From Schwartzia succinivorans DSM 10502 (GTDB taxonomy: Bacteria; Bacillota; Negativicutes; Selenomonadales; Selenomonadaceae), in NCBI RefSeq assembly GCF_900129225.1, contig NZ_FQUG01000002.1, forward strand, positions 124,001-188,000: 64,000 bases of DNA, read 5' to 3'. Numbering within the stretch: position 1 is the first letter of the stretch; each line of letters opens with the position of its first letter. Made by a program: the position numbers and the translations under genes. Below are positions 4,673 to 24,683 of this stretch, one piece after another. A model generated the notes under the pieces. That model made no database searches. It saw nothing but the letters and a program-made list of their open reading frames with translations, and was not told the origin of the DNA.

Positions 4673-5020
4673 CTAGATGCCTTCACCGTCCATTCCGGTG
4701 AAACGGCTTCTTATAGTGCGGTCCATCTGTTTTACCTTTCCATCCTTTATGACGATTACAAGCTGCCCGTAATCGAGATTTTTAAATGAGGCTCTTATCT
4801 TCTCCTCAAGGAAGGAAAGCTCTTTTTCCTCAAAGGCTTTTCTCTGACATGAGGGAGCATTCTGCTGAATGCGGATTTTTTCGTTCCGTTCTATCTGTAT
4901 GAGCCGTGAATCCTGCGCCACAAGTATCAGCTCACCGAAACAGATTTCCGAGAGAGCCTGACGAATGTATTTCATAGCCTGAGGATTTATGCTTTCCAAG
5001 GCTTTCTTTTCTGCTGCCAT
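4673..5020 (-). CDS. YezD family (DUF2292) protein with two tandem repeats
   Basis: This is a 115-residue cytoplasmic protein of unknown function. It contains two copies of the ~38-residue DUF2292 motif: residues ~18-50 (FGELILVAQDSRLIQIERNE) and ~75-108 (YGQLVIVIKDGKVKQMDRT). YezD proteins usually have a single copy (about 55 residues), so this looks like an internal duplication. The linker contains one Cys. It has its own promoter (TTGACA, 17 bases, TATTCT on the minus strand) and a long-stem terminator, so it is monocistronic. In some bacteria DUF2292 genes lie with sulfur-assimilation genes, but no such link exists here. Confidence 0.8.
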   Translation of the reverse strand: MAAEKKALESINPQAMKYIRQALSEICFGELILVAQDSRLIQIERNEKIRIQQNAPSCQRKAFEEKELSFLEEKIRASFKNLDYGQLVIVIKDGKVKQMDRTIRSRFTGMDGEGI

Positions 5021-5060
5021 ATATACCCACCTTTCATAGCTGTGAACTATGATTTATAAA

Positions 5061-5089
5061 AGAATACCATACCGTATCCCGTATGTCAA
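5061..5089 (-). promoter_or_regulatory. Sigma-A promoter of the YezD-like gene
   Basis: On the minus strand TTGACA (5089-5084) and TATTCT (5066-5061) are 17 bases apart, about 40 bases upstream of the start codon. Confidence 0.75.
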
Positions 5090-10361: not shown

Positions 10362-10390
10362 TTGACACAGTTACACATGTGCAGTATAGT
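10362..10390 (+). promoter_or_regulatory. Sigma-A promoter of methyltransferase unit 1
   Basis: A perfect TTGACA (10362-10367) and TATAGT (10385-10390) are separated by exactly 17 bases. Transcription would start near 10397, just before the structured leader. The 342 bases between 10190 and 10533 hold only this promoter, the leader RNA and, presumably, the upstream signals of the divergent efflux operon. Confidence 0.85.
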
Positions 10391-10400
10391 ATTCCAAAAG

Positions 10401-10497
10401 ATATATAACATAGCAATTAGCTATGAAATGGCTGACTGGAAAACCGGAGGCTTCAACAGAACCGTAAGAGCGGACTGTTGAAGCCTCCTTTCTTTTT
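10401..10497 (+). promoter_or_regulatory. Leader RNA copy 1: candidate riboswitch/attenuator of unit 1
   Basis: This element occurs three times in the island, each time directly after a sigma-A promoter. Copy 1 has hairpin P1 CATAGC (10409-10414) with GCTATG (10420-10425). A conserved single-stranded CTGA follows, then hairpin P2 CTGG (10436-10439), loop AAAA, CCGG (10444-10447). Last is a perfect 14-bp terminator stem (10446-10459 with 10475-10488) and a T-rich tail. The 3' GG of P2 is also the first GG of the terminator stem. It shows no cobalamin B12 box, SAM-box or T-box features. It probably controls read-through into the methyltransferase genes; the ligand or factor is unknown. Confidence 0.75.
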
Positions 10498-10532
10498 CAA
10501 AAGCAATCCAAAGTATCTTGGGAGATGATGGA

Positions 10533-11546
10533 ATGAATGGAAAAGAACGGCTGCTGGCAGCATTACGCGGCGGGGCGACGGACCGAATGCCTGTGCTCTC
10601 CGTTTGTCAGTACGCTACCTATGAGTTGATGGAAAAAACTGGAGCCTGTTGGCCTGAGGCTCATTATGACGGTGAGAAAATGGCGGCGCTTGCGGCAGGC
10701 GGAGCAACAGTGCTTCATCTTGACGCGGTGCGCGTGCCATACTGTCAGACGGTTGAGGCGGAAATATACGGCTCAAAGATTAAGGATGGAGGAAAGAAGC
10801 AGATTCCCAGTATTGAAAAGCCTGCCCTGAGTGTGGACGATGTTCCGGTCATCCCGGAGAATTTCACGGAAAAGGGAAGGATTCCTGCGGTACTCGATGC
10901 CATTCGTCGGTTGAAGCAGGATGTTGGCGGTGAAACTGCTGTAATGGGAAGTATTGTAGGCCCGTTCAGTGTGGCGGCGAATATCATCGGTGTTTCGGCA
11001 CTTCTGAAGGCAAGCCTCAGAAAGCCGGAAAAGCTTGCTCCTTTTTTCGAGGCGGCAGAGAAAACCGCTGAGCAGTATGCGGAGGCAGTCATCAATGCAG
11101 GTGCTGACGCAATCGTCATTGAAGACATGATGGCGTCACTGGATATGATTAGCCCGAAGGCGTACAGGGAGCTTGCGGCACCCTACGAAAAACAGCTGAT
11201 TTCCTTCATTAACAAAAGGGTTCCTGTTATCATCCATATCTGCGGCAAGCTGGATCAGGTAATTCTTGATGTGGCTGCGACAGGGGCGGACGCGATAAGC
11301 GTTGAGTCCGCTGTGGATGTCAGGGAAGCCAAAAGGAAGTTTAAGGAAAATGGTATTTCGACGCCGGTATTCGGTGCGGTTCATCCCATAAGCGCTCTCT
11401 TGGAGGGCACGGAGGAGGATGTCGCCCAGGGCGTGAAAAAATCCATCGCCGACGGCGTTGACGCAGTCTCCCCGGACTGCGCGGTTGCGCCGGATACGCC
11501 GATTAAAAATATCATAGCAATGGTTAAAACAGTTGAAGGACTGTAA
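10533..11546 (+). CDS. UroD/MtaA-family methylcobamide methyltransferase, copy 1
   Basis: This 337-residue protein has the uroporphyrinogen-decarboxylase fold used by MtaA/MtbA/CmuA methyltransferases, which move a methyl group from a methyl-corrinoid protein to a thiol. It keeps the zinc motif His-X-Cys...Cys: HICGKLDQ near residue 232 and SPDCAVAPDTP near the C terminus. In methanogens the acceptor is coenzyme M; bacteria lack it, so the acceptor here is unknown (homocysteine or a pterin are candidates). The ATG at 10533 is preferred to the TTG at 10518 because GGGAG precedes it at good spacing. It is first in the operon with the corrinoid protein and the MtmB homologue. Confidence 0.88.
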   Translation: MNGKERLLAALRGGATDRMPVLSVCQYATYELMEKTGACWPEAHYDGEKMAALAAGGATVLHLDAVRVPYCQTVEAEIYGSKIKDGGKKQIPSIEKPALSVDDVPVIPENFTEKGRIPAVLDAIRRLKQDVGGETAVMGSIVGPFSVAANIIGVSALLKASLRKPEKLAPFFEAAEKTAEQYAEAVINAGADAIVIEDMMASLDMISPKAYRELAAPYEKQLISFINKRVPVIIHICGKLDQVILDVAATGADAISVESAVDVREAKRKFKENGISTPVFGAVHPISALLEGTEEDVAQGVKKSIADGVDAVSPDCAVAPDTPIKNIIAMVKTVEGL

Positions 11547-11571
11547 AGAGAAAAGAAAGAAGGAATAAATC

Positions 11572-12219
11572 ATGGCAGAAAATATTTTGGAAAAACTCAA
11601 GCAGACAATTCTTGACTTCGATGAGGACGCGGCACTTGATGCGGCAAATGAAGCACTGGCAGCAGGCGTTGACCCGGTAGAGGCTGTAGGCGCTCTTGCT
11701 GACGGACTCAACGAGCTGGGTGATAAATTTGAGCGTATGGAGGTATTCCTCCCGGAAATCATGCTGGCCTCGGATGCCTTCAAAAATGCGCTGAGTGTTC
11801 TGGAGCCTGAGATAAAGAAAAGAAACACTGAAGGGCAGAAGGCTATCCCGGTAGTTATCGGCACCGTGCAGGGTGACGTACATCAGGTGGGCAAGGACAT
11901 GGTAGCTACATTCCTGACGACTGCAGGCTTTGATGTGCATGACTTGGGTGTTGATGTCGCCCCGTCCCGTTTTCTTGAGGAAGCAAAGAAGCTTGACGCG
12001 AAAATCATTGCGGCTGCATCTCTTATGTCAACCACACGCCCCGTACAGAAGGACCTTATTGATTTCCTTGAGGCAAAGGGCGTTCGCGACAATTTCATCG
12101 TTCTTGTTGGCGGCGGTGTCGTAACGCAGGAGTGGGCCGACCAGATTAAGGCAGACGGCTACGGGCAGGATGCGATCGCAACTGTTGAGATTGCAAAGAA
12201 GCTGCTTCACGTAGCATAA
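11572..12219 (+). CDS. Methyltransferase corrinoid protein (MtmC/MttC-like), copy 1
   Basis: This 215-residue protein has an N-terminal helical cap domain (residues ~1-90, pattern VGALADGLNELGDKFE) and a C-terminal Rossmann-type B12-binding domain. The motif GDVHQVGKD near residue 105 is the DXHXXG signature whose histidine ligates cobalt from below, and the glycine-rich VLVGGGVV completes the site. It would carry the methyl group as methyl-Co(III) between the MtmB homologue encoded next to it and a UroD-type methyltransferase. The second corrinoid protein (20859-21530) is a clear paralogue but belongs to a different unit. Confidence 0.93.
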   Translation: MAENILEKLKQTILDFDEDAALDAANEALAAGVDPVEAVGALADGLNELGDKFERMEVFLPEIMLASDAFKNALSVLEPEIKKRNTEGQKAIPVVIGTVQGDVHQVGKDMVATFLTTAGFDVHDLGVDVAPSRFLEEAKKLDAKIIAAASLMSTTRPVQKDLIDFLEAKGVRDNFIVLVGGGVVTQEWADQIKADGYGQDAIATVEIAKKLLHVA

Positions 12220-12274
12220 GAATACAAGCTTTTATATGAAATAAATTGAATGGATATAGTTGGAGGGAATTGTT

Positions 12275-13687
12275 ATGAGTCATGGATCCAAAGGAAAATT
12301 TATCGAATACTGGGGCCGCGGTGAAACAGGCCCGATTACATTTCAGAAGGAATTTGATACTAAGGTTTACTGGCCTCGCCTGAAGGAGCTCACGAAGAAA
12401 TACGGCATTGAGTACGCGCCCGGAAAGGTTGTCCCGACTGACGATGATGAGCTTGATGCTATTTGGAATGCAGGCAAGGAACTGCTCTTGGATGTCGGTA
12501 TTCTGAACGTATCGACAGAACGCCGTATAACCTTCAGCGAGGAAGAGGTTGATGCAGCACTTGAGAACCTGCCGACTCAGGTAACTCTGGGTGAGGGACA
12601 GGATGCTATTACCATTCCGCACCGCGGCTTTGAGGATTATGACAGCGGAAAAACCCCTGTTGGCACAATGGGACGTATTCTCGGGCCTATTTCCGATGAT
12701 TTGTATGAAAAGGTTGCGCTGTCATACGCTCAGGAGCCTCTTATTGATTATGTTCACTTCCAGGGTGTCAAGACGGAAATCAACGGTATTCCTGTAAAAC
12801 CTGGCTCTCCGTTTGAAATGATGGCTGAACAGCAGCACGTCGCCATCGTAAATGATGTAAAACGCCGCGTCGGACGTCCTGGGCTTCCCGACGGCGGTTC
12901 AACTCCGGTTAATCTTCAGGCTGAAATGGCTGCGGCAAATCCGTACTGGGGCGTTAAAAAGGGTGACGTGCGCCATGTCTACATCATGCCGCAGCTTAAA
13001 ACAGACTACGATCAGATGAGCCGCGCGTACTTCTGGCACTCTTACGGCGCAAACATCTGGGGTATTCTGCAGTCCTACATCGGCGGCGCCGCAGGCGGCC
13101 CTGCGACCTCCGCGGTAAACGGCGTTGCTGACCTTCTTGCATACGTAATGCTGTATGAACCTACGATTCTCGGCACATGGCCGACAGATGCCCTTTACTT
13201 CAGCAACTCCAGCAAATACGCTCTTTATGTGGCGGACTATGGCGGCGCGGCCTTCAGCAAGCATACTCATTTCCCGTCCCTCGTCGGTGCTTCCTGGCAG
13301 CAGACTGCAGGCATCAACAGTGAGGAATACTTCTGGGAGACCGCAGCCGGCGCAATCGGCAGCGCAACTCTCGGCTTTCTTGTCGCAGGCGGCACAGGCC
13401 ATCAGAGCGCAGGCCTCGACCACGCATGCGGACTTGGCGCGCGCTTTGCTGCAGAGGTCGGCAGGGCAGTCGGCAAGGCCCGCCTTACCCGCGTACAGGC
13501 AAACGAGCTTGTCAATAAGATTCTGCCGAAATATCAGCCGCTCATCGACAACCGCACGCTGCATACAGTCGGCGGAGACTTCCGCACGGCATACGACCTT
13601 ACGACAGTTCAGCCGAAGCCTGAGTTCCTTGCAAAATACAACAAGGTCAAGGCAGAGCTTCGTGAGCTCGGTCTGCCAATCGTTTAA
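12275..13687 (+). CDS. MtmB-family methyltransferase homologue lacking pyrrolysine
   Basis: This 470-residue protein resembles archaeal monomethylamine methyltransferase MtmB (about 458 residues) along its length. Examples are the N-terminal ELTKKYGIEY and PTDDDELDAIWNAGKELLLDVGI, the central GPISDDLYEKVALSYA, and a C-terminal pattern around YDLTTVQPKPEFLAKYNK. The residue matching pyrrolysine-202 of MtmB falls in GRPGLPDGG and is Asp-206 (codon GAC at 12890-12892); there is no in-frame TAG. Pyrrolysine is needed for methylamine chemistry, so the substrate is probably not monomethylamine, by analogy with the non-Pyl MttB homologues that demethylate quaternary amines. The start at 12275 follows GGAGGG; an upstream TTG at 12260 is unlikely. 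A terminator follows. The alignment is from memory. Confidence 0.85.
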   Translation: MSHGSKGKFIEYWGRGETGPITFQKEFDTKVYWPRLKELTKKYGIEYAPGKVVPTDDDELDAIWNAGKELLLDVGILNVSTERRITFSEEEVDAALENLPTQVTLGEGQDAITIPHRGFEDYDSGKTPVGTMGRILGPISDDLYEKVALSYAQEPLIDYVHFQGVKTEINGIPVKPGSPFEMMAEQQHVAIVNDVKRRVGRPGLPDGGSTPVNLQAEMAAANPYWGVKKGDVRHVYIMPQLKTDYDQMSRAYFWHSYGANIWGILQSYIGGAAGGPATSAVNGVADLLAYVMLYEPTILGTWPTDALYFSNSSKYALYVADYGGAAFSKHTHFPSLVGASWQQTAGINSEEYFWETAAGAIGSATLGFLVAGGTGHQSAGLDHACGLGARFAAEVGRAVGKARLTRVQANELVNKILPKYQPLIDNRTLHTVGGDFRTAYDLTTVQPKPEFLAKYNKVKAELRELGLPIV

Positions 13688-13752
13688 AGAGCTTCCCATT
13701 AAGCTTCCTTTCAAGGGGGCTTTCCCATAACTCTTCGGAGACTCTGTCTCCG

Positions 13753-13786
13753 GGCCGTTCACAATTTTTGTGGACGGTCTTTTTTT
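13753..13786 (+). terminator. Terminator of methyltransferase unit 1
   Basis: GGCCGTTCAC (13753-13762) pairs with GTGGACGGTC (13770-13779) and is followed by seven T. A second small hairpin (GGAGAC-TCT-GTCTCC) lies directly before it. Confidence 0.88.
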
Positions 13787-13890
13787 GTAAAAATAAAGTT
13801 TCACCAATGCTGCTCTAATGTAGTAAAATGATAGTAGGTTATTAGAAATTGCATTACATAATTGCTTAAACGGAGAGGGGTAAGCTGAAA

Positions 13891-14826
13891 ATGAAAATCA
13901 GAAAAGCAATCTTTACGGCTGCAATAGCTGCTTCACTTACTGCTTCACTTACTGCTGTATCGCCGTCGTTTATTCCTGCGCCTGTATTCGGCGCGGCGGT
14001 GTGCGAGGCGATGGTTCCGTATCAGAACGACGGGATGACGCTGCTTGTACCGGGTTATTATGACAGTCTGCTCCGTACGAAGGTGCTTAAGGATGACAAG
14101 GACGGCAGACTCTTCTCAATCACCGAGGCGAAATCGGTGACGGCGGCATGGCTGCAGAATGAGCGAAGAAATGGCCCAGGCTGGATCTGTACAATCCGCC
14201 GCGTCAGTGAAAAAAAGCTTCATAAAATGCTCTGCAGTGATATGTCGGGAGCGGAGGTCTTTGCAAAGGATGCAAAGGGGAACCATTATATCCTTGAGCA
14301 TCCGACGGATGTACGCCTGTTCCGCAAAAATAACGAGGATATGCGCCGTGACGGTGAAATATGGAGCAGTCTGAACAAGTGGGCAGGAACGGAGCTTCCG
14401 GGCGAGTTTATACAGGCCAACAAGGGACTTGTACGTGAAGCCTATGACAACAGCAGCGTGGCTATGTATCTAGCCCGCACCGCCTATGGGCCAAGAGTAA
14501 ACTACACAATCGGCATGTCAAGGCAGGGGGCATTTTTTTCGGATGAGGTAAAAGCTGATAAATACGTGGAGCAGCTCATAAGGAACGCAAGGTATGAAAT
14601 GATTGATTCGAAGGATGTGCCTGCCGGAGAATGTGTGACGCTCAGCTTCCCTGATGAAAAAATACGGTTTGACTTCTTTTTGCAGGATGGCAGGGAAAAC
14701 TATGTCCGCGAGGTTCACGTGGACGGTTTTGTAATTCTTTACAGGGCAGCCTTTGATGACGGGGTAACAAAGGCAGGCACTGTTATGAAGCAATGGTACA
14801 GGGAGCTTTCCAACCACAGAATTTAA
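13891..14826 (+). CDS. Exported protein of unknown function
   Basis: This 311-residue protein starts with a signal peptide (positive MKIRK, then an Ala/Leu/Thr-rich core with a direct repeat of TASLT, cleaved near GAA at residue ~32). The mature part shows no catalytic motif that I recognise; it has scattered charged strands and two cysteines (in WICTIRR and MLCSDM). It sits between unit 1 and unit 2 of the methyltransferase island and lies 31 bases before an exported methyltransferase-like gene, so the two are probably co-transcribed. Secretion is clear; function is not. GAGAGGGG precedes the start. Confidence 0.75.
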   Translation: MKIRKAIFTAAIAASLTASLTAVSPSFIPAPVFGAAVCEAMVPYQNDGMTLLVPGYYDSLLRTKVLKDDKDGRLFSITEAKSVTAAWLQNERRNGPGWICTIRRVSEKKLHKMLCSDMSGAEVFAKDAKGNHYILEHPTDVRLFRKNNEDMRRDGEIWSSLNKWAGTELPGEFIQANKGLVREAYDNSSVAMYLARTAYGPRVNYTIGMSRQGAFFSDEVKADKYVEQLIRNARYEMIDSKDVPAGECVTLSFPDEKIRFDFFLQDGRENYVREVHVDGFVILYRAAFDDGVTKAGTVMKQWYRELSNHRI

Positions 14827-14857
14827 GATTGCTTTCAATCAATAGGAGAGATTATTT

Positions 14858-15820
14858 ATGTCTCATGAAACAAAAAGATATTTTATCGGCAGGCTGTTGA
14901 TTTTTGCGCTGCTTCTGTGCGCAGTCTGCGGAAACGTTTATGCGGAAGATTCCATGCGGCCGGTTTCCTATACGGCGTACACTTCTCTTTATTGGCTGAG
15001 GGAGGCAGGCGTTCCGGAGGCGGCAGAATTTTCCAATGCTATCGGAGATAATAAGGTGAGTCTGGCGAAGAATGCGATTCCCAATTATGATGAGCTGGCT
15101 CCTGTAAATAAGCTCTACATTGAAATGCGCTATGCGGCGCTTAATGAATATATCACAGGGAATAACTATCAAAACAATTTTGACATAGCCTGCGGTTTTG
15201 CCCCGCGCAGCATAGCTATGGCACGCCAGGGACGGAATTTTGTGGGCACGGATTTTAAGCAGTCAATAACAGAAGTGAGCAGTATTGTGTCTGAGTGTGT
15301 ACCTGTAAAACAGCAGAAGCGTATTTCCTATATCGTTGCTGATGCAACGGACGGGGCAGGCATGATGCGTGCGGCTGATAAGCTTGACGGACGTATCTGC
15401 ATAACTATGGACGGACTGATGATGTACCTCAGCAGACAGGAGCAGGCAGCTGTGCTGCAGAGCATTAGGGAAATTTTGAAAAAGCATGGCGGCGCGTACG
15501 TCACTTCCGATTTTTCGGCACGTGAATTTGTAAAGGCGTCTGCGATGGTGGTTTATGATGACACAGATGCCCAGCGTATTTACAGAAATTCTGCCGAGAT
15601 GTACGAAAAAACTGCTTCAGCAGATTTTGACAAGGCATTTTTCAGCAATGCAGAGGAGGCTGTTCAGTTTATTGAAGCTCAGGGGCTTAAGGTAAAGAGA
15701 ATTCCCCTTTTCCAAAGTCCTGTTTCGATATACAGTGCCAAAGCCTTTGACCTCGAGCAGTACCAAAAACTGAACGGCTTGAAAAATGAATTGTTCCTTT
15801 GGGAAATTACTATTGATTAA
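14858..15820 (+). CDS. Exported LCM-type SAM methyltransferase-fold protein
   Basis: This 320-residue protein combines an N-terminal signal sequence (RLLIFALLLCAVCG core, cleavage near VYA-ED at residue ~30) with a class I methyltransferase domain of the leucine-carboxyl-methyltransferase (Ppm1/TIGR00027-like) type. The motif I region is FDIACGFAPRSIAMA near residue 110, the acidic strand-2 end is VGTDF, and the strand-4 region reads ITMDGLMMYLSRQE. SAM is not expected outside the cytoplasm, so either the hydrophobic N terminus is only a membrane anchor facing inward or the fold has another role. The cytoplasmic relative at 22586-23488 lacks this N-terminal segment. It follows the unknown secreted protein gene by 31 bases. 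Confidence 0.7.
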   Translation: MSHETKRYFIGRLLIFALLLCAVCGNVYAEDSMRPVSYTAYTSLYWLREAGVPEAAEFSNAIGDNKVSLAKNAIPNYDELAPVNKLYIEMRYAALNEYITGNNYQNNFDIACGFAPRSIAMARQGRNFVGTDFKQSITEVSSIVSECVPVKQQKRISYIVADATDGAGMMRAADKLDGRICITMDGLMMYLSRQEQAAVLQSIREILKKHGGAYVTSDFSAREFVKASAMVVYDDTDAQRIYRNSAEMYEKTASADFDKAFFSNAEEAVQFIEAQGLKVKRIPLFQSPVSIYSAKAFDLEQYQKLNGLKNELFLWEITID

Positions 15821-15870
15821 TGAGGATATTTATACGAAGGAGATAAATTAGCAATGTTTTACGGTTTTGC

Positions 15871-15899
15871 TTGACATCATGCGGCTATTGCGGTATAGT
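15871..15899 (+). promoter_or_regulatory. Sigma-A promoter of methyltransferase unit 2
   Basis: A perfect TTGACA (15871-15876) and TATAGT (15894-15899) are separated by 17 bases, identical in both boxes and spacing to the unit 1 promoter. Confidence 0.85.
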
Positions 15900-15910
15900 A
15901 GTTAAAAATA

Positions 15911-16004
15911 TAAAACATAGCATATAAGTATGAATAAACAAAACTGACTGGAAAACCAGAGGCTTTGGATGGAGCAGAGTGCTCTGTCCACAGCCTCTTT
16001 TTTG
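15911..16004 (+). promoter_or_regulatory. Leader RNA copy 2: candidate riboswitch/attenuator of unit 2
   Basis: This is the second copy of the conserved leader. P1 is CATA (15916-15919) with TATG (15929-15932), and GCA follows the 5' arm as in the other copies. P2 is CTGG (15948-15951), loop AAAA, CCAG (15956-15959). Relative to copy 1 the second arm changes from CCGG to CCAG so that a G-U pair becomes A-U, which keeps the helix. The terminator begins with GAGGCT (15959-15964) paired with AGCCTC (15992-15997), has an inner GGAGCA/TGCTCT helix, and ends in six T. Beyond the conserved blocks the sequence differs freely from copies 1 and 3. Confidence 0.75.
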
Positions 16005-16022
16005 TTGAAGGGAGAATGGAAG

Positions 16023-17957
16023 ATGGCAGAGGCGTACACGATAGTTTTTCAGCCCTCGGGACGGCGCGGGGAAGTGCCGGCAGGGAAGACTGTACTGGCA
16101 GCGGCGCAGGAGCTGGGCGTTGGTATAGAGGCGTCATGCGGCGGAAAGGGTGTCTGCGGAAAGTGCCGTATTATTGTAGAGGAAGGACGTTTTGAAAAGC
16201 TTGGGCTTGTTTCGGGCGCGTCCCATGTATCTGAACGCGGCGAGACAGAGGAGAAATTTTTTACAGAGGATGAACTCAGCCGAGGCTATCGTCTGGCATG
16301 TCTTACGCAGATTACAGGAGATCTGGTGGTGACAGTACCTGAGGAGAGCCGAAGCGTAAAACAGGTCATCCTTGAAAAGGGAAAGAAAAGGACTTTTACT
16401 ATAAATCCTGCAGTGAAGCAGTATACGATAAAGCTTCCTGCACCAACTCTTGAGGATGCCCGCGACGACCGCCGCCGTCTTTTGGATGTTCTGGAGGAAA
16501 AGGAGGGGCTTTCTGGACTCACCGTGGATTATCCTGTGCTTCGCACGCTTCCCCGTACACTTCGCGAAAATGACTGGCTTGTCACTGTATCTGTATGGCA
16601 GGGCAAGGAGGTTATACGTGTGGAGTCGGGGGAGGCTCCGCATAGCCTTGGAATTGCCATTGATATAGGAACGACAACCCTGGCGGCATTTTTGTGCGAC
16701 CTTGTGACAGGGGAGCTTTTGTCAAAGGCTTCACGGATGAATCCTGAAATCGGCTACGGCGAGGATGTGCTGGCGCGTATTTCCTATGCTATGGCAAACG
16801 AGGACGGCGGAGAAAAGCTACAGCGTGCAATGCAGGACGCGGTGAGTGAGCTTGCCGCGCAGATGACAGGTGAAATCGGCCGCACACCTTCAGAGGTTGA
16901 TGAAATGGTGCTGGTGTACAACACTGCAATGCATCATTTCACACTTGGACTTGATTCCAGGTATGTGGGCCGTTCTCCCTTTGCACCTGCAGCCAGTGAT
17001 GCCCTTGACATCAAGGCGCGTGACCTCGGAATACTTATAAATCCCTCCGCAAATATTCATTCCCTTCCCATCGAAGCAGGTTTTGTAGGCGCGGACAACG
17101 TGGCGGTGCTTTTGGCAGAGGAGCCGTATAACAGCGAGTCTGTAAAGCTTATCATTGATATAGGTACAAACGGAGAGATTGACCTTGGAAATAAGGAAAG
17201 ACTTCTTTCCACCTCCTGCGCAACAGGCCCTGCTCTTGAGGGAGCGCAGATTGCCTTCGGAATGCGCGCCGCACCGGGTGCTATCGAGCGTATTGAAATA
17301 AACCCCGAAACCTATGAGCCGCGTTACAAGGTTATCGGAAAGGACGAGTGGTTCCCTGATATTTCCTTCACAGGGGCACAGGGCATCTGCGGCTCCGGAA
17401 TAATTGATGTTGTGGCCGAGCTTTACCGTGCGGGAATAATCTCAAAGGCAGGCCGCATAAATACGAAGCTTGATACGCCGCGTGTAAGAAAGGATGACAA
17501 GGGGAAGGCCGAATATGTTCTGGCGTGGGCGCCTGAGACGGCAGTCCACAAGGATATTGTAATCACGCAGGGAGACATACGTGCGGTGCAGCTTGCAAAG
17601 GGGGCTATCTACGTCGGCGCGAAATATCTCATGGAAAAATATGGAATTGACCATGTAGATGAAGTCATTCTTGCAGGTGCCTTCGGAAGCTACATTAATA
17701 AAAAGAGTGCTATGGCTCTTGGTATGTTCCCCGACTGTGCTTTGGAAAAGGTTCAGGCGGTTGGAAATGCAGCCGGTGACGGTGCCCGTATCGCTCTGTT
17801 AAATGTAGAAAAAAGAAAAGAAGCGGCAAAGGTAGCGCGTGAGGTTGAGTTTATTGAGACGGCAGTTGAGCCTGATTTCCAGACACGTTTTATGGAAGCC
17901 CTTGCCATCCCTCACGCAAAGGACGAGTTCCCACATCTGAAGGAAGGGGACGCCTGA
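16023..17957 (+). CDS. Corrinoid-protein reductive activase (ferredoxin plus ASKHA/DUF4445; RACo/RamA-like)
   Basis: This 644-residue protein has an N-terminal plant-type 2Fe-2S ferredoxin domain (Cys-39, Cys-45, Cys-48 and Cys-93), a linker, and an ASKHA ATPase region. Its phosphate-binding strands read AIDIGTTTLAAF (near residue 208) and IIDIGTNGEIDL (near residue 378), and GAFGSYINKKSA lies near the C terminus. Such proteins use ATP to drive reduction of inactive Co(II) corrinoid to Co(I), restarting methyltransferase systems. It is the obvious activator for the two corrinoid proteins of the island. I chose the ATG at 16023 because AAGGGAG precedes it; an upstream ATG at 15969 lies inside the terminator. 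It overlaps the next gene by one base. Confidence 0.92.
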   Translation: MAEAYTIVFQPSGRRGEVPAGKTVLAAAQELGVGIEASCGGKGVCGKCRIIVEEGRFEKLGLVSGASHVSERGETEEKFFTEDELSRGYRLACLTQITGDLVVTVPEESRSVKQVILEKGKKRTFTINPAVKQYTIKLPAPTLEDARDDRRRLLDVLEEKEGLSGLTVDYPVLRTLPRTLRENDWLVTVSVWQGKEVIRVESGEAPHSLGIAIDIGTTTLAAFLCDLVTGELLSKASRMNPEIGYGEDVLARISYAMANEDGGEKLQRAMQDAVSELAAQMTGEIGRTPSEVDEMVLVYNTAMHHFTLGLDSRYVGRSPFAPAASDALDIKARDLGILINPSANIHSLPIEAGFVGADNVAVLLAEEPYNSESVKLIIDIGTNGEIDLGNKERLLSTSCATGPALEGAQIAFGMRAAPGAIERIEINPETYEPRYKVIGKDEWFPDISFTGAQGICGSGIIDVVAELYRAGIISKAGRINTKLDTPRVRKDDKGKAEYVLAWAPETAVHKDIVITQGDIRAVQLAKGAIYVGAKYLMEKYGIDHVDEVILAGAFGSYINKKSAMALGMFPDCALEKVQAVGNAAGDGARIALLNVEKRKEAAKVAREVEFIETAVEPDFQTRFMEALAIPHAKDEFPHLKEGDA

Positions 17958-18862
17958 TGGCAGAGGAAACAGAGAAGCTTCACATAGCCCGTGAGTGTGC
18001 CAGCGATCCCGACGCGCCGCCTCCAACATGTATTATATCCGAGGATATCTGTGAGGCGGCAGGAATCCGTTACGAGGATGCTTTTTTCGATGGTGAGGCA
18101 ATGGCGAGGGCAGCGCTTGCTCTCAGCTGCCGTGACCACGATCCTCTTTGCCGGCTGCCGTTTTCGGTCTCCGTGGAGGCTGAGCAGTACGGAGCAAAGC
18201 TTACACTAAATGAAAAGACGAGAATCCCTGCTGTCAAAAATTTTCCTTATAAGCGTCTTCAGGATATGCCTGCGCTTCAGCCGCTGGATTTTACGAAGGG
18301 GCAGATTTCTGCGGTGCTTGAAGCCGTCAAATGGCTAAAGCATCATGGTGAGACTGTCCTTTTGGAGCTTGAAGGAGTGTTCAGCGTACTAAGCCTTCTT
18401 GTATCCTCACGGGAGGTATACAAGGCCGTCTATCGGAATCCTGAGGAAATAAAGCAAAGGGGCGCAGAGCTTGCAGGGAGAATCTCTGAATATGCGGGAG
18501 AGGCAGTGCGCTGCGGTGCGGGTATTCTTTCATACAGCGACGCAACGATTTCCTTTGAGCTTGTTTCTCCTGAGCTTTACCGGGATGTCTGCGGAGAGGT
18601 TACCGTGGATGCGGTACGACGTGTCAGAAGAGCAGCGCCGCATACGATGCTTCAGCTTTGCAGCGCGACTTCGGTTGGGCTTGAGAGAGCAGACCGTGCT
18701 GTCGCGGAAAAGGTTCCTGTAACTCCGGGGCTTCTGTATGGCGAGGCACTGAAGCTTGTGGGACTGAACCGAAAAGACTGCAGGCTTGTGGGGCACGGCT
18801 GCCAGGTTCGTTCGCCGCTGAGAATGCAGGAGCCGTACATTTACAAACTGACTCTCAGATAA
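17957..18862 (+). CDS. Short UroD-fold protein, copy A (altered zinc motif)
   Basis: This 301-residue protein has the UroD/MtaA fold pattern (PFSVSVEAEQYGAK, ELEGVFSVLSLLV, SPELYRDVCGEV) but is about 40 residues shorter than the two MtaA-like proteins of the island. At the position of the His-X-Cys zinc motif it has LQLC, so the histidine is replaced by glutamine, while a later GHGC is kept. It is about as long as, and clearly related to, the protein at 19062-19934, which retains HLC. It is translationally coupled to the activase gene (TGATG overlap). It may bind a corrinoid or modulate methyl transfer; whether it is catalytically active is doubtful. Confidence 0.75.
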   Translation: MAEETEKLHIARECASDPDAPPPTCIISEDICEAAGIRYEDAFFDGEAMARAALALSCRDHDPLCRLPFSVSVEAEQYGAKLTLNEKTRIPAVKNFPYKRLQDMPALQPLDFTKGQISAVLEAVKWLKHHGETVLLELEGVFSVLSLLVSSREVYKAVYRNPEEIKQRGAELAGRISEYAGEAVRCGAGILSYSDATISFELVSPELYRDVCGEVTVDAVRRVRRAAPHTMLQLCSATSVGLERADRAVAEKVPVTPGLLYGEALKLVGLNRKDCRLVGHGCQVRSPLRMQEPYIYKLTLR

Positions 18863-18895
18863 GCAGTAAAAATCATGAAATGTTATGTTTTTCTC

Positions 18896-18924
18896 TTGAC
18901 AAGATAAACTCAGTGGGGTAATAT
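18896..18924 (+). promoter_or_regulatory. Sigma-A promoter of methyltransferase unit 3
   Basis: A perfect TTGACA (18896-18901) is followed after 17 bases by TAATAT (18919-18924). A consensus TATAAT lies three bases further on (18922-18927) but at a 20-base spacing. Confidence 0.75.
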
Positions 18925-18930
18925 AATGTC

Positions 18931-19036
18931 TATAAAACATAGCAAGTATATATGAAAAGAAAACGGACTGACCGGAAACACCGGAGGTTCTGTGACAGGC
19001 TTATTTAGTCTGCCGCAGAGCCTCCTTTTGTTTTTT
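18931..19036 (+). promoter_or_regulatory. Leader RNA copy 3: candidate riboswitch/attenuator of unit 3
   Basis: This is the third copy of the conserved leader. P1 is CATA (18938-18941) with TATG (18951-18954), again with GCA after the 5' arm. The conserved ACTGA block precedes P2 CCGG (18972-18975), loop AAACA, CCGG (18981-18984). Here the first arm changed from CTGG to CCGG, giving full Watson-Crick pairing, so across the three copies the helix varies in both arms while staying paired. The terminator is a 10-bp stem with one G-U pair (18983-18992 with 19016-19025) followed by TTTTG and six more T. Confidence 0.75.
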
Positions 19037-19061: not shown

Positions 19062-19934
19062 ATGGATGATGAACTGAGCTTTGAATGTCTCGGGGAACCT
19101 GACAGACCTATCACCGAGGAGCTTTGCTCCAACGCGGGCGCACGGTATGCTGCGGTATTCGGACAGGCTGAGGACATGATAAAGGCAGCGCTTGAGGTAA
19201 AGCGGCTGAATCATGATGAATGGGTAAAGCTGCCGTTCTGCGTGACGATAGAGGCGGAAGGCTTCGGAGCTGAGGTCGAGCTCAGTCCTCTCTACGGAGT
19301 CCCGGCTGTGACTCATTTCAGATACGAGACTATTGATGAAATAGATACGCTTCCACAGCTTGATTTTACCAGCGGACGGGTGAAGGAGGTGCTGAGGGCG
19401 GCATCAATTCTTCACGGGCAGGGCGAAAAAATAATGCTGAACATCGAGGGGCCGTTCACGGTGCTCGGGCAGCTGGTTCCTTCCAAACAGATATACAAAG
19501 GTCTCTACAGAAAGAAGGAGAGGCTGAGGGAACTGAGTGAAATCATCGGAAATGAACTCGCGCGGTACGCAAGGGAAGCGGAGGCGCACGGAGTTGACCT
19601 TCTCTCCTACGCAGATCCGACGGTTGCCAGCGATCTGATTTCTCCGAAGATATATCAGGAGCTTTGTGGAGAGATATCCTACGAGGTACTGAAAAAAATC
19701 GAGGCGGCAACAGAGCACATTGTGATTCATTTGTGCAACAAAACCTCGGTGGGCTTTGAAAAAGCAGGCTTTTGTACCTCAGAAAAGATTTTGCTGCCGA
19801 GGGAGCTTAACTACGGGGAAGCCCTGCAAAAGGTCATGCAGGAGAATGATATCCGCTTCATCGGACACGGATGCATACAGCGTTCCTACTGTCCGTTATG
19901 CAACGGCGGCGTATATAAGCTGACACTGAAGTGA
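19062..19934 (+). CDS. Short UroD-fold methyltransferase-like protein, copy B
   Basis: This 290-residue paralogue of the protein at 17957-18862 has the same UroD-fold landmarks (PFCVTIEAEGFGAE, NIEGPFTVLGQLV, SPKIYQELCGEI). Unlike copy A it keeps His-Leu-Cys at the zinc position (IVIHLCNK) and GHGC near the end, and it has extra C-terminal cysteines (YCPLC). It could therefore be a zinc-dependent methyl acceptor enzyme, while copy A may not be. The ATG at 19062 follows AAAGGGGGCGG; the upstream TTG at 19035 lies within the terminator tail. It is first in the seven-gene unit 3. Confidence 0.77.
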   Translation: MDDELSFECLGEPDRPITEELCSNAGARYAAVFGQAEDMIKAALEVKRLNHDEWVKLPFCVTIEAEGFGAEVELSPLYGVPAVTHFRYETIDEIDTLPQLDFTSGRVKEVLRAASILHGQGEKIMLNIEGPFTVLGQLVPSKQIYKGLYRKKERLRELSEIIGNELARYAREAEAHGVDLLSYADPTVASDLISPKIYQELCGEISYEVLKKIEAATEHIVIHLCNKTSVGFEKAGFCTSEKILLPRELNYGEALQKVMQENDIRFIGHGCIQRSYCPLCNGGVYKLTLK

Positions 19935-19973
19935 AAACAGATTACAGAGAGTATATGGAATGGGGAATGAGCA

Positions 19974-20822
19974 ATGGCATCAGAAAAAGCAAGACTAAAG
20001 GACAAAATCGTAAGAAAGGCGAAGGCGCTGGATATAAATTTAATCGGTGTAGCGCCGGTAAAGCGCTGGCAGGAGCAGCATCTGAATGATGAGGAATTTT
20101 GGCCGCAGAATATATGGCCCTGGGCTAAAAATGTTATAGTTCTCGCTATGCAGATTTTCCCGGGTATGATTGAGACGACTCCTTCGGTTGTGTATTCGGA
20201 GCTTTATAACACTACAAACCGCCTTTTGGATGATGTTTCATACCGTATAGCGAATTTTTTGAATGAGGAAGGCTATAGGGCACATTTCTTCCCGCGGGAC
20301 TGCTACGGAGATATTTCAGCGCTGGTTAAGCGGCCTGAGGCAGCCTTCTCACATGTAATAGCAGGATATTACGCAGGACTGGGTACTATAGGTCTTAATC
20401 ATACGCTTATAACAAAAAAGTACGGACCGCGTATCCGCCTCGTCTCAATAATCACGGACGCGGAGCTTCCTGCCAGCCGCATGCTGAAGGAGGATGTGTG
20501 CATCCGCTGTCAGGCGTGTATCAGGGCGTGTCCGATGCAGGCCTTCACATGGAAGAAGGGGGAGCCTGTGGCGAACATGGACAAACACAAATGTGCTCTT
20601 TACCACCAGCAGCTGAAGCAGGAATTTCATTATCCCTGCGGACGGTGCGCGGCGGCCTGCCCGGTAGGCCTTGATAAGAAGCGCTACGGAGCAAATGCTA
20701 TAAGCGCAGAGGGTATTCTGCACTGCCGCGATTTCGGAGCGGCAGATGCCGGAGAGATAAAAAAACAGAAGGGCAGCGTGGTAAGAATAGCCGGGCGTGC
20801 CGCAAAGAAGAATTTTGGCTGA
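19974..20822 (+). CDS. 4Fe-4S epoxyqueuosine reductase-like (QueG-type) protein
   Basis: This 282-residue cytoplasmic protein resembles the C-terminal half of QueG and the iron-sulfur domain of reductive dehalogenases. It has two ferredoxin-type cluster motifs: CIRCQACIRACP (near residue 175) and a second site built from HKC and CGRCAAACP (near residue 220). QueG and its relatives use a corrinoid with two 4Fe-4S clusters, so a protein of this type in a corrinoid island may reduce a corrinoid protein or act as electron donor to it. It is not likely to be the tRNA queuosine enzyme, given the context. It sits between a UroD-fold gene and the second corrinoid protein gene. Confidence 0.72.
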   Translation: MASEKARLKDKIVRKAKALDINLIGVAPVKRWQEQHLNDEEFWPQNIWPWAKNVIVLAMQIFPGMIETTPSVVYSELYNTTNRLLDDVSYRIANFLNEEGYRAHFFPRDCYGDISALVKRPEAAFSHVIAGYYAGLGTIGLNHTLITKKYGPRIRLVSIITDAELPASRMLKEDVCIRCQACIRACPMQAFTWKKGEPVANMDKHKCALYHQQLKQEFHYPCGRCAAACPVGLDKKRYGANAISAEGILHCRDFGAADAGEIKKQKGSVVRIAGRAAKKNFG

Positions 20823-20858
20823 TAAATATGTGAAGCTGATGAAAGAGGAGGAATTTAT

Positions 20859-21530
20859 ATGGCAACGGAACAGGAACTGCACCAGGGACTTTATGACGCG
20901 GTTGTAGATATGGATGAAGAGCAGTCGGCGGAGCTCGCGTCGGAGGTTGTAAAGGCCGGCTATGATGCCTACGCTGCGATAGAGCAGGGACTCTCAAAGG
21001 GAATGGACAAGGTGGGCGAGCTTTATGAGCAGGAGGAATATTTCATTCCTGAGCTCCTTCTGTGCTCGGATGCGATGTATGCGGGAATTGATATTCTGAA
21101 GCCGCATATCGTCCGCGAGGAAACGAGGGTGCAGCATAAGGTGGTTATAGGTGTCGTTGAGGGAGATACCCACGACATAGGAAAGAACCTTGTGAAAATC
21201 ATGCTGGAAAGCGCAGGCTTTGAGGTTATAGACCTTGGGCGCGACATCAAGGCTCAGGCTTTTATAGATGCTGCCGAGGAAAACGGCGCTGAGATTATCG
21301 CGCTCTCAACACTTATGACAACGGCAATGCCATCCATGCAGGAGGTTGTTGAGCTTCTCGAAAAACAGGATAAGCGTGATAAATACAAGGTGCTGATTGG
21401 CGGAGGCCCTATTTCCCCGAATTTCGCAAAGAAAATACGGGCAGACGCATACGCTTCTACGGCAGCGGAAGCAGCCCGCATCGCCAAGGATTTTGCAGCG
21501 GCGGAGGAAGCCGCCCTGCAGAGCGCGTGA
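20859..21530 (+). CDS. Methyltransferase corrinoid protein, copy 2
   Basis: This 223-residue paralogue of the unit 1 corrinoid protein has a helical cap (residues ~1-90, including SKGMDKVGELYEQEEYFIPE) and a B12-binding domain with GDTHDIGKN near residue 105, which holds the cobalt-ligating histidine. IGGGPIS forms the later glycine-rich loop. AGGAGG precedes the start. It is followed after 10 bases by an MtaA-like gene, so the two are a likely pair. No second MtmB or MttB gene is encoded in this unit; either it shares the MtmB homologue of unit 1 or its methyl donor enzyme is one of the UroD-fold proteins. Confidence 0.92.
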   Translation: MATEQELHQGLYDAVVDMDEEQSAELASEVVKAGYDAYAAIEQGLSKGMDKVGELYEQEEYFIPELLLCSDAMYAGIDILKPHIVREETRVQHKVVIGVVEGDTHDIGKNLVKIMLESAGFEVIDLGRDIKAQAFIDAAEENGAEIIALSTLMTTAMPSMQEVVELLEKQDKRDKYKVLIGGGPISPNFAKKIRADAYASTAAEAARIAKDFAAAEEAALQSA

Positions 21531-21540
21531 GGTGAAGGCA

Positions 21541-22566
21541 ATGAATGATATTTCCCCTAAGGAACGTCTTTTCCGCGTGCTTGAAAAGAAAACTGTAGAC
21601 CGTCCGCCTGTTATATGCCCGGGAGGAATGATGAACAGTGCAACTGTGGATGTCATGAAGGAATGCGGCGCGTCCTTCCCTACAGTGCACCACAGTGCTG
21701 AGGCTATGGAGCGGCTCTCCTCTTCGGTGCAGACGAGGACAGGCTTTGAAAATTTCGGCATCCCCTACTGTATGACGGTTGAGGCTGAGGTGCTGGGAAG
21801 CGAGATTGATTTTGGAAACGAGGAATGCGAGCCGAAAATTGCCAAGGAGCGTTATGAGTTTTCGAGGGATGTTCCGATTCATGACGTGAAAAAGCTGGTC
21901 AAAGAGGGCCGCATAGAGGCTATTGCCAAGGCAGGCTATGAAATCGGCAGAAAAAATCCGGATATTCCTGTAATCGGAAGTCTTACAGGCCCTGTGTCCA
22001 CGGCGGCTTCGATTGTAGACCCGATGACCTTTTTGAAGGAGCTTCGGAGGGATAAGGAAAACGCGAACCGCGTTCTGGACTATGTGGCGGATTTCCTCAT
22101 AGAGTACGCCAAGGTCCTTGTAGAAAGCGGGTTCCCTGTAATAACAATCGCAGACCCCACGGCGACGGGCGAAATTTTGGGACCGAAGATGTTCGGTGAC
22201 TACGCTGTGCCGTATCTCAACAAGCTGGTGGACGGGATTCATGCTTTGGATACTCCTGTAATTGTGCATATATGCGGACGGCTTGAGTCGGTAGAAAAGC
22301 ATCTCGCAGGAATCCACGCTGATGCCATAAGCACAGACGCGATGGTTAATCTGAAAAATATCAAGGCAGCCTGTGGAGTGGGCACGGTAATGGGAAATCT
22401 CAGTACCTTTGCGCTGCAGCTGCAGACGCCTGATGTCATCCAAAGGGCAACAGAAAAGCTTTTGAGCGACAAAATCGACATAATAAGTCCTGCCTGCGGT
22501 CTTTCTACGACGACTCCGGCGGATAACATAAGAGTTATGACGGAAACCGTAAAGCAGTCGGGTTAA
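21541..22566 (+). CDS. UroD/MtaA-family methylcobamide methyltransferase, copy 2
   Basis: This 341-residue protein has the MtaA fold and an intact zinc motif: HICGRLES near residue 241 and SPACGLSTTTP near residue 318. It is similar to copy 1 at 10533-11546, for example in the N-terminal block KERLFRVLEKKTVDRPPV and in PYCMTVEAEVLGSEI. It would take the methyl group from the corrinoid protein encoded just upstream. The start at 21541 follows GAGGTGA; an in-frame extension to 21397 would overlap the corrinoid gene and is rejected. Two corrinoid/MtaA pairs in separate units suggest two methyl routes, or two partners with one donor. Confidence 0.88.
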   Translation: MNDISPKERLFRVLEKKTVDRPPVICPGGMMNSATVDVMKECGASFPTVHHSAEAMERLSSSVQTRTGFENFGIPYCMTVEAEVLGSEIDFGNEECEPKIAKERYEFSRDVPIHDVKKLVKEGRIEAIAKAGYEIGRKNPDIPVIGSLTGPVSTAASIVDPMTFLKELRRDKENANRVLDYVADFLIEYAKVLVESGFPVITIADPTATGEILGPKMFGDYAVPYLNKLVDGIHALDTPVIVHICGRLESVEKHLAGIHADAISTDAMVNLKNIKAACGVGTVMGNLSTFALQLQTPDVIQRATEKLLSDKIDIISPACGLSTTTPADNIRVMTETVKQSG

Positions 22567-22585
22567 TGGGAAAGGAAGAAGAAAT

Positions 22586-23488
22586 ATGATAGCCGAACAG
22601 GAAAGTATGACAGCGAAGCTTTGCTCCTTCGCACGCGCATACCATTCGACAATGGGAAAAAATAAAATATTTGATGATTATCTTGCTTACGACATCATCG
22701 GAAAGGACGAATACGACCGAATAGGCCGTCTGCTCCAGAGTGATTACGCGGCAGAACCCTACGAGCCGCGCTATGGCTTTGAAAGTGTATGGGTATTTGA
22801 TGAAATGGACCGTTATTTTTCACCGATTACACTTTCGCGTATAGCCTTTGCAGAGCGTGCACTGCGCCGTTTTGCAGAGAGCCGTTCGGAAAGCCAGTAT
22901 GTAGTGCTGGGGGCTGGAATGGATACCTTTGCCTTCCGCAACACAGATGAAACCATACAGATTTACGAGCTTGACCATCCTGACACACAGGCGTACAAGC
23001 TGCAGCGAATCCACAAGCTGCGCTGGACGATACCCGAAAATGTCCACTATGCTCCTGTGGATTTTGAAAAGGAAGAGTTCGGACGCGCACTTCTCAGAGC
23101 AGGCTTCTGTCAGGCAGGTGCATCCTTCTTCTCGCTTTTGGGTGTTGCGTATTATCTTACGCCTGAGAGCTTCAGACGCATCGTGCGCGGTATAGGCGAG
23201 CTCGCCTCCTCGGGAAGTCAGTTCGTGTTTGACTTCCCTGATGAGACAACCTTTGCGGAAAAGCGTCCGAGACGCGTCCGCGAGCTTACGGAAATCACCA
23301 GCAAGCTGGGTGAGCCTATGCTCCACGGATTCTCAGTTGATGAGATTCACACAATCCTCAACGAGGAAGGCTTCAATATCCGCCGTCATGAAGGCCCGAG
23401 AGATATTCAGCGTCACTTCTTTGATGACCGTATGGACAATCAGAGGGCTATGGAAAACATTCATTTCATCCTGGCGGAGAAAAAATAA
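22586..23488 (+). CDS. LCM-type class I SAM-dependent methyltransferase
   Basis: This 300-residue cytoplasmic protein belongs to the leucine-carboxyl-methyltransferase / TIGR00027-like group. It has YVVLGAGMDTFAFR near residue 110 as motif I, the acidic IYELDHPDTQ at the end of strand 2, and LGVAYYLTPESF in the post-catalytic region. Proteins of this group O-methylate small molecules or carboxylates in secondary metabolism. Its place in a corrinoid operon, followed by two sulfur amino-acid genes, recalls the B. subtilis arrangement of a SAM methyltransferase (yrrT) with mccA and mccB, but it is not obviously orthologous to YrrT. Substrate unknown. Confidence 0.8.
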   Translation: MIAEQESMTAKLCSFARAYHSTMGKNKIFDDYLAYDIIGKDEYDRIGRLLQSDYAAEPYEPRYGFESVWVFDEMDRYFSPITLSRIAFAERALRRFAESRSESQYVVLGAGMDTFAFRNTDETIQIYELDHPDTQAYKLQRIHKLRWTIPENVHYAPVDFEKEEFGRALLRAGFCQAGASFFSLLGVAYYLTPESFRRIVRGIGELASSGSQFVFDFPDETTFAEKRPRRVRELTEITSKLGEPMLHGFSVDEIHTILNEEGFNIRRHEGPRDIQRHFFDDRMDNQRAMENIHFILAEKK

Positions 23489-23515
23489 AAAAGATAAATA
23501 ACGGAGATGGGAAAA

Positions 23516-24670
23516 ATGGGAAGCTATGAGAAGATTGAGAGTGCCCTGATTCATGCAGGGTACGAAAATGACAAACAGACAGGCGCGGTTAATGTGCCAA
23601 TCTATCAGACATCCACATATCAGCAGGACGGTATCGGGGAAATGCGCGGGGGCTGGGAATACTCGCGCACGGGAAATCCTACCCGTCAGGCTCTTGAGAA
23701 GCTGATTGCGGAGCTTGAGAAGGGCACCGCAGGCTTTGCCTTCGGCTCAGGTATGGCTGCGCTTACAGCTGTGCTCAGTCTTTTTAAGACCGGGGATAAG
23801 ATTCTCCTGTCGAGCAACGTGTATGGCGGAACCTTCCGCGTGCTGGACAAGGTGTTCAACCATTTCGGCATCACATACTCCCTTGAGGATATGACCGATG
23901 TTGAGGCCTTCGAAAAGAAGCTGACGCCTGATGTAAAGGCGGTACTTATCGAAAGCCCTGCAAATCCGCTGCTCACAATCACGGACCTGGCGGCTGTGGC
24001 TGCGGCGGCAAAGAGACACGGCGCTTTGACAATAGTTGACAACACCTTTATGAGTCCGTACCTCCAGCGTCCGCTTGAGCTTGGCGCGGATATCGTCGTA
24101 CACAGCGCGACAAAATATCTTGGCGGACACAGCGACGTTGTTGCAGGTCTTGCCGTCGTGAAGGACGCAAAGCTTGCAGAGCAGATTGCGTTTATTCAGA
24201 ACTCCACGGGAGGTGTTTTGGGGCCATTTGACTCCTTCCTGCTTATCCGCGGAATAAAGACTCTTGCGGTGCGCCTTGACCGTCACACGGAAAACGCGCA
24301 GGCGATTGCGGAATGGCTGGCGGAAAATCCTGAGGTCAGCAGAGTTTATTATCCGGGGCTTACAACGCATCCGGGATACGATATTAACGCCCGTCAGGCG
24401 AAAAACGGCGGCGCCATGATATCCTTTGAGCTTACTGAAAAACATGACATCCGTAAATTTTACAAATCCCTGAAGCTTATTGCACTGGCGGAAAGCCTCG
24501 GCGGTGTTGAGAGCCTCGTCTGCCATCCGGCAACCATGACTCACGCTGCGATTCCAAAGGAAACACGGGAAAAGGTCGGCATCACGGACAATCTCATTCG
24601 TTTTTCCGTCGGAATTGAGGCAAAGGAAGACTTGATTGCGGATTTGACACAGGCAATTCAGAACAGCTGA
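23516..24670 (+). CDS. PLP-dependent Cys/Met metabolism enzyme (cystathionine gamma-lyase/synthase, MccB-like)
   Basis: This 384-residue enzyme of the MetB/MetC/MccB family has its PLP lysine in HSATKYLGGHSDVVAG (near residue 197). The phosphate-binding FGSGMAALTAVLS lies near residue 80 and YPGL lies near residue 280. Family members make or cleave cystathionine, or cleave methionine. Pairing with a cysteine/cystathionine synthase gene 13 bases downstream suggests reverse transsulfuration, homocysteine to cysteine, as in mccAB. The ATG at 23516 has GGAG nine bases before it; the one at 23507 is too close. Gamma-lyase versus gamma-synthase cannot be separated here. Confidence 0.87.
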   Translation: MGSYEKIESALIHAGYENDKQTGAVNVPIYQTSTYQQDGIGEMRGGWEYSRTGNPTRQALEKLIAELEKGTAGFAFGSGMAALTAVLSLFKTGDKILLSSNVYGGTFRVLDKVFNHFGITYSLEDMTDVEAFEKKLTPDVKAVLIESPANPLLTITDLAAVAAAAKRHGALTIVDNTFMSPYLQRPLELGADIVVHSATKYLGGHSDVVAGLAVVKDAKLAEQIAFIQNSTGGVLGPFDSFLLIRGIKTLAVRLDRHTENAQAIAEWLAENPEVSRVYYPGLTTHPGYDINARQAKNGGAMISFELTEKHDIRKFYKSLKLIALAESLGGVESLVCHPATMTHAAIPKETREKVGITDNLIRFSVGIEAKEDLIADLTQAIQNS

Positions 24671-24683
24671 GGGGGAAAATATC

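Follow-up and report, generated by a model that had tools for sequence, protein, structure and literature searches.

A conserved hairpin overlapping the leader terminators of sulfur genes in Bacillota, and DUF2292/YezD as its predicted protein partner

Three gene units for corrinoid-dependent methyl transfer lie close together in a 64,000-nucleotide stretch of the genome of Schwartzia succinivorans DSM 10502 (assembly GCF_900129225.1, contig NZ_FQUG01000002.1, positions 124,001 to 188,000; hereafter called the window), and each of them is preceded by a short leader. This raises the question of what the three leaders have in common and which factor they respond to. A first-pass annotation had seen in them one leader-RNA family, and this holds: the same core occurs in all three, and the finding extends further than first described. 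Our analysis suggests, with a probability of about 0.72, that the leaders act as antiterminators of sulfur genes, and that the small protein family DUF2292/YezD is the predicted RNA-binding partner that gives read-through.

The leader coordinates given in the first-pass annotation proved correct, and the full units of promoter, leader and terminator extend over positions 10362-10491, 15871-16001 and 18896-19028 on the forward strand. The TTGACA-type promoters noted before are evident in all three; the -35 box is followed, after a spacer of 17 bp, by TATAGT in units 1 (10362-10390, with TTGACA at 10362-10367 and TATAGT at 10385-10390) and 2 (15871-15899) and by TAATAT in unit 3 (18896-18924). 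Each leader ends, as annotated, in a strong intrinsic terminator (10446-10491, with a 14-bp stem and a U run; 15959-16001; 18983-19028). The leaders fold with z-scores of -7.9, -4.2 and -5.8 relative to shuffled sequences (leaders 1, 2 and 3), values that come mainly from the terminator. The motif CTGAYYGGAAA(N0-2)CCRGAGG has three exact matches in the window and none in 100 shuffles; the pattern CATA-N9-TATG...CTGANYGG matches three times in the whole 2.66-Mb genome and not at all in the reversed control. A search of the window with the covariance models of Rfam 15 (cobalamin, SAM, T-box, THF, PyrR etc.) gave nothing above the gathering cut-offs, only chance scores of miRNA and snoRNA models at E≤10, which agrees with the earlier failure to assign the leaders to a known class. 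Also in the loci of relatives that were scanned, no Rfam family covered the hairpin.

The conserved RNA is a single hairpin. From the outside inwards it has a helix A, an internal loop of UGA opposite AG, a helix B of 4 bp and, at the tip, an A-rich loop that mostly measures 4-5 nt. The outer helix (GGC/GCT, GGAC/GTTC) had not been recognized before, and the CTGA that was taken for a single-stranded linker contributes its UGA as one side of the internal loop within this longer hairpin. Hairpin 1 (10430-10452) reads GGC, UGA (10433-10435), CUGG-AAAA-CCGG, AG (10448-10449) and GCU. Hairpin 2 (15942-15964) has UGA at 15945-15947, CUGG-AAAA-CCAG at 15948-15959 and AG at 15960-15961, and hairpin 3 (18965-18990) has UGA at 18969-18971, CCGG-AAACA-CCGG at 18972-18984 and AG at 18985-18986. 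The earlier observation that the terminator begins with the 3' end of helix B (then called P2) is correct: the 3' strand of the hairpin (AG-G...) is the 5' arm of the terminator, and in leader 1 the two structures have GGAGGCU in common. Hence, from the order of parts proposed before (a CATA hairpin called P1, CTGA, P2, terminator), P2 and the terminator remain, while P1 as a part of the family and the free CTGA linker do not. When the growing transcripts of the three window leaders were folded, the hairpin always formed first and was replaced by the terminator at full length. Because its 3' strand doubles as the 5' arm of the terminator and because the folds swap, the hairpin is an antiterminator by its anatomy.

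The helices of this RNA family covary. Among relatives helix A occurs as AAC/GUU, AGC/GCU, GAAC/GUUC or GGGC/GCUC, and helix B as CUGG/CCAG, CCAA/UUGG, CUAG/CUAG, UUGG/CCAA, CCGU/ACGG, ACAG/CUGU or UCAG/CUGA. An alignment of 33 sequences contains two-sided changes in nearly every pair, and with 71 sequences from across the phylum they are found in all 9 pairs. The covariation of P2 claimed from the three window copies is therefore real, but it takes the 71 sequences to show it; three copies are insufficient as proof. In this larger alignment 170 cells carry double changes compared to 64 in shuffles, and 0 of 500 shuffles reach 170. Helix B is 98% paired, and 88.9% of all cells are paired compared to ≤47% when the alignment is slid, percentages that are biased upward in that part of the 71 sequences was picked with structure-aware tools. 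Stronger evidence therefore comes from the two controls, by shuffling and by sliding, and from the way the hairpin overlaps the terminator. A strict finder that combines the structure with the terminator arrangement gave 60 matches and one in the reversed control.

For wider searches we used a covariance model of the hairpin alone, R2, which was trained only on sequences from the family of the window genome. A terminator overlaps the hairpin after 76 of 88 R2 matches, while about 9.6 are expected from shuffled flanks; since R2 holds only the first arm of the terminator, this overlap lies beyond the model. In the window genome R2 finds only the three window leaders (10426-10459, 38.1 bits; 15938-15971, 40.3 bits; 18962-18996, 39.2 bits). 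The further conserved copies on which the first-pass annotation had made the RNA claim depend are widespread in the class and the phylum. Of 300 genomes of the class, 95 have R2 matches at E≤0.1 and 83 at E≤0.002, and a single genome can hold up to 15 copies; in a sample of 398 genomes from the phylum 34 have matches at E≤0.002, scattered over families. Matches in one family (f15; genomes G336, G376 and G342) and in genomes G409 and G436 were rejected on inspection as coding or repeat matches. At one locus (L088, 9572-9799) three antiterminator hairpins stand in tandem ahead of a corrinoid methyltransferase operon.

The constant partner of the hairpin is the small protein family DUF2292/YezD. 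In the class sample, DUF2292 is present in 77 of the 83 genomes with a hairpin at E≤0.002 versus 28 of the 217 others (Fisher p = 5e-40). At least three of the six hairpin genomes without DUF2292 are false RNA matches (coding or repeat), and several genomes counted as having DUF2292 alone contain true hairpins, which score lower. In the phylum sample 30 of the 34 hairpin genomes have DUF2292, and additionally one (G744) has a divergent copy. The two are also neighbors. At 80 named Bacillaceae yezD loci, 56 of the 63 R2 hairpin matches lie 0-160 nt 3' of the yezD stop codon on the same strand; this stop codon is 0-20 nt ahead of the hairpin or touches it, and the hairpin precedes a CysH-like gene wherever the next gene is readable. 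Upstream of yezD most of the Bacillaceae loci scanned have a SAM riboswitch. In two Clostridia-type loci (L269, L270) the hairpin stands behind a DUF2292-like gene, whose product ends in RVEE(V/I)KKSIKL and which itself comes after a cobalamin riboswitch, while weaker hairpins follow a DUF2292-like gene near a cobalamin riboswitch in two others (L273, L274). A further DUF2292-like protein encoded near a cobalamin riboswitch (L272) ends in RVEEIKKSVKL. At another locus (L185, 1347-2156; G749:C14) the DUF2292 gene is tandemly duplicated together with its hairpin.

The window itself encodes a DUF2292 protein of 115 aa at 4673-5020 on the reverse strand, the proposed RNA-binding antiterminator. 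The DUF2292 profile (PF10055) matches it in two stretches, corresponding to two tandem domains, with 73 bits versus a Pfam cut-off of 22. The gene has its own promoter (TTGACA 5084-5089, TATTCT 5061-5066, reverse strand). An AlphaFold2 model (pLDDT 72.6, pTM 0.63) contains two alpha-beta-beta units. A Foldseek search with this model against the PDB gave nothing significant (best E 0.3), and a sequence search for a solved DUF2292 structure found none. In the literature outside subscription sources we found no account of the function of DUF2292 or YezD, or of this leader. The transcriptome of B. methanolicus (PMC4342826) lists (SAM)-cysH; no mention of yezD or of a second attenuator was found there.

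The genes 3' of the hairpin mostly belong to sulfur metabolism. In relatives they include orthologs of all three window units, and in addition O-acetylhomoserine sulfhydrylase (metY), methionine gamma-lyase/cystathionine enzymes and cysteine synthase (cysK), transporters for methionine (NlpA, MetN) and of the SsuA and YeiH types, and cysH, sat, metK, APS reductase, ferredoxin sulfite/nitrite reductase, an MtnW-like enzyme, NifB and NifH-like proteins. The regulon is sulfur acquisition together with methionine and cysteine metabolism, and the window's corrinoid methyltransferase units belong to it; the earlier suggestion that sulfur amino acids may be involved is thus supported. Unit 1 (10533-13687) encodes an MtaA-type methyltransferase (10533-11546), a corrinoid protein (11572-12219) and a homolog of the monomethylamine methyltransferase MtmB without pyrrolysine (12275-13687). 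Unit 2 (15969-18862) encodes a RACo/AcsV-type corrinoid reductive activase (longest ORF 15969-17957) and a 301-aa methyltransferase of the URO-D family (17957-18862). Unit 3 (19062-25595) encodes a URO-D-family methyltransferase, a Fer4 protein, a corrinoid protein, an MtaA-type methyltransferase, an LCM methyltransferase, an enzyme of the cystathionine lyase/synthase family and one of the cysteine/cystathionine-beta-synthase family. All three are on the forward strand. Because the corrinoid methyltransferases adjoin cystathionine and cysteine enzymes, they most likely act on methylated sulfur compounds. The MtmB homolog lacks an in-frame amber codon, and in the alignment with 1L2Q a gap or Asp stands at the pyrrolysine position; its place in a sulfur regulon makes a role as a methylamine enzyme improbable. 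In the activase gene the longest ORF begins, at 15969, within terminator 2, and its true start is probably an ATG 3' of this terminator (region 15969-16030).

Together, these data can be combined into a scheme. The comparisons show the RNA family with its covariation and its overlap with the terminator, the sulfur regulon, and the co-occurrence and adjacency with DUF2292; RNA binding by DUF2292, antitermination as the direction of control and a sulfur signal are inferred, as would be any binding of a ligand by the protein. By default the strong terminator hairpin would halt transcription ahead of the operon. The weaker antiterminator would form earlier, before RNA polymerase has left the leader, and would take up the 5' arm of the terminator (GAGGNNN), so that the terminator is blocked as long as the antiterminator is held. 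DUF2292/YezD, as a dimer of one alpha-beta-beta unit or as two fused units like in the window protein, would recognize the two loops, UGA/AG and A-rich, which always lie 4 bp apart, and cause read-through when sulfur is short. Stabilization under sulfur limitation is expected, because stabilization in sulfur excess would give the wrong response. In the window, a single protein, that from 4673-5020, would serve in trans all three operons for corrinoid methyltransferases and cysteine/methionine enzymes. In Bacillaceae and some Clostridia-type genomes, in which its gene lies directly before the hairpin and behind a SAM or cobalamin riboswitch, the riboswitch would set the level of the DUF2292 protein and the protein would then open the operon. 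We consider it fairly likely that DUF2292/YezD is, more generally, a new superfamily of antitermination proteins that bind RNA with a minimal fold and have a hairpin family of their own, and that it controls sulfur-acquisition regulons in trans in the class of the window genome and is nested behind riboswitches in the other groups, as a relay from riboswitch to antiterminator protein to attenuator.

Several observations weigh against this scheme. Helix A of leader 2 contains one A.C mismatch, and the AlphaFold2 model resembles no solved RNA-binding protein. Two draft genomes that are 91-95% complete (G012, G017) have convincing leaders, and DUF2292 was not found in them; conversely, there is no hairpin in some DUF2292 genomes, for example in one genus with weak domain matches (g11) and in one family (f57). 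DUF2292 could be a co-regulated sulfur protein rather than an RNA binder.

Among the alternative explanations, a small-molecule riboswitch for the methyl substrate or a corrinoid, which the first-pass annotation had considered, is not supported by the data as a first choice. A related idea is that the hairpin itself binds a sulfur metabolite and that DUF2292 is merely a frequent member of the regulon; it would account for the uniform sulfur regulon and for the conservation of UGA, AG and the A-rich loop, as in a ligand pocket. However, with about 9 bp and ten unpaired bases the conserved part would make a very small aptamer, hairpin and DUF2292 co-occur very tightly at the genome level, and the hairpin also follows DUF2292-like genes in operons with a cobalamin riboswitch, so that the common factor is a protein family and not a metabolite. 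We regard this minimal riboswitch as unlikely. Protein-mediated antitermination is preferred because the constant partner of the hairpin is DUF2292/YezD. Co-occurrence and adjacency are correlative, and another factor that is distributed like DUF2292 and binds the antiterminator would also fit them; since it is the DUF2292 gene that repeatedly abuts the hairpin, across unrelated families and with two kinds of riboswitch, such a factor is very improbable.

Known antitermination proteins of the ANTAR or BglG/LicT (CAT_RBD) families also use this kind of architecture, in which a terminator is overlapped by a small hairpin, and the window genome encodes one ANTAR protein. CAT_RBD (PF03123), however, is found neither in the window genome nor in most of the hairpin-bearing genomes tested, and ANTAR occurs in hairpin-positive and hairpin-negative genomes alike and is missing from one genome (G640) with a hairpin and yezD before cysH. 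In addition, the single hairpin with its A-rich loop of 4-5 nt differs from paired hexaloops. Both families were rejected as the binding protein since their distributions do not follow the hairpin; a role for either seems most unlikely. There is similarly little chance that translation reads the hairpin, i.e. that ribosomes which terminate on yezD or a leader ORF choose the structure. The close spacing between the yezD stop codon and the hairpin in Bacillaceae would fit, but the window leaders and the class leaders inspected have no evident upstream leader ORF, and the UGA is out of frame with yezD where checked. DUF2292/YezD hence remains the preferred partner.

The 5' element P1 requires a separate explanation. 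It is common to the three window copies (CATA-N9-TATGAA at 10409-10427, 15916-15934 and 18938-18956) and altered or absent in relatives. The covariance model of the three copies that had been proposed, R1, which includes P1, found relatives in the family of the window genome, with 3-5 clustered per genome; its matches were weak and patchy, and P1 was dropped from the RNA family because in these matches it did not align. In many genomes the leader consists only of promoter, hairpin and terminator. The pattern CATA-N9-TATGAA occurs just 5 times in the window genome, including the three leaders and the 5' end of the DUF2292 gene, where it forms a leader-type element, CATAGTTCACAGCTATGAA, in the 5' UTR (5033-5051, reverse strand); at these four sites it lies just 3' of the promoter. 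In one genus (g21), P1-type hairpins (CGYC-AAAAA-GRCG) vary, are lacking in some cases and stand next to a common promoter module. P1 may therefore be a DNA operator rather than an RNA hairpin. The module, TTACACC..TTGACATGATAGGTGTAATAGTGTAACAT, is common to the g21 leaders and four loci (L315, L316, L320 and L040 16750-16830), and has an inverted TTACACC/GGTGTAA around the -35 box; this repeat suggests a transcription factor that acts on the same regulon. The DUF2292 genes of g21 bear the different leader promoter of that genus; like the P1 element at the DUF2292 gene of the window, this speaks for DUF2292 as the partner.

If the scheme is correct, DUF2292/YezD, a very common family so far without an assigned function, gains one that can be tested, and many Bacillota gain a sulfur-starvation switch, a role held elsewhere by CymR or S-box regulation. 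Riboswitches would seem to regulate an antiterminator protein which then opens the very operon they stand in, and MtmB-type corrinoid methyltransferases without pyrrolysine find a place in a sulfur-scavenging regulon, which would narrow their likely substrates to methylated sulfur compounds. The closest known systems are the RAT hairpins of LicT, SacY and BglG, proteins with a CAT RNA-binding domain, in which a small protein-stabilized hairpin with an asymmetric internal loop also overlaps the 5' arm of the terminator; a dimeric RNA-binding unit of ~55 aa would be enough in both cases. Sequence and loops are unrelated, however, and here the regulon is for sulfur and not for sugars and the predicted partner is DUF2292. 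ANTAR target RNAs have two hairpins with hexanucleotide loops. The window leaders resemble them in the proposed antitermination and in the look of two hairpins (P1 and P2), but P1 is not conserved, the loops are not hexaloops and only one hairpin is conserved. The SAM riboswitch (RF00162) controls the same sulfate assimilation (cysH) operon in Bacillaceae; it lies upstream of yezD and the hairpin downstream, so that the two stand in series, whereas none of the scanned loci in the class of the window genome combines the hairpin with a SAM riboswitch. Attenuation by PyrR, HutP and TRAP likewise relies on small proteins, often encoded in the operon they control, whose targets are the leader terminators of a metabolic regulon, but DUF2292 is an unrelated protein family and its hairpin has no match in Rfam. 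The protein-stabilized antiterminator is a kind of control that is already known, while the RNA family, the proposed protein family, the role in sulfur metabolism and the arrangement in series with riboswitches appear to be new.

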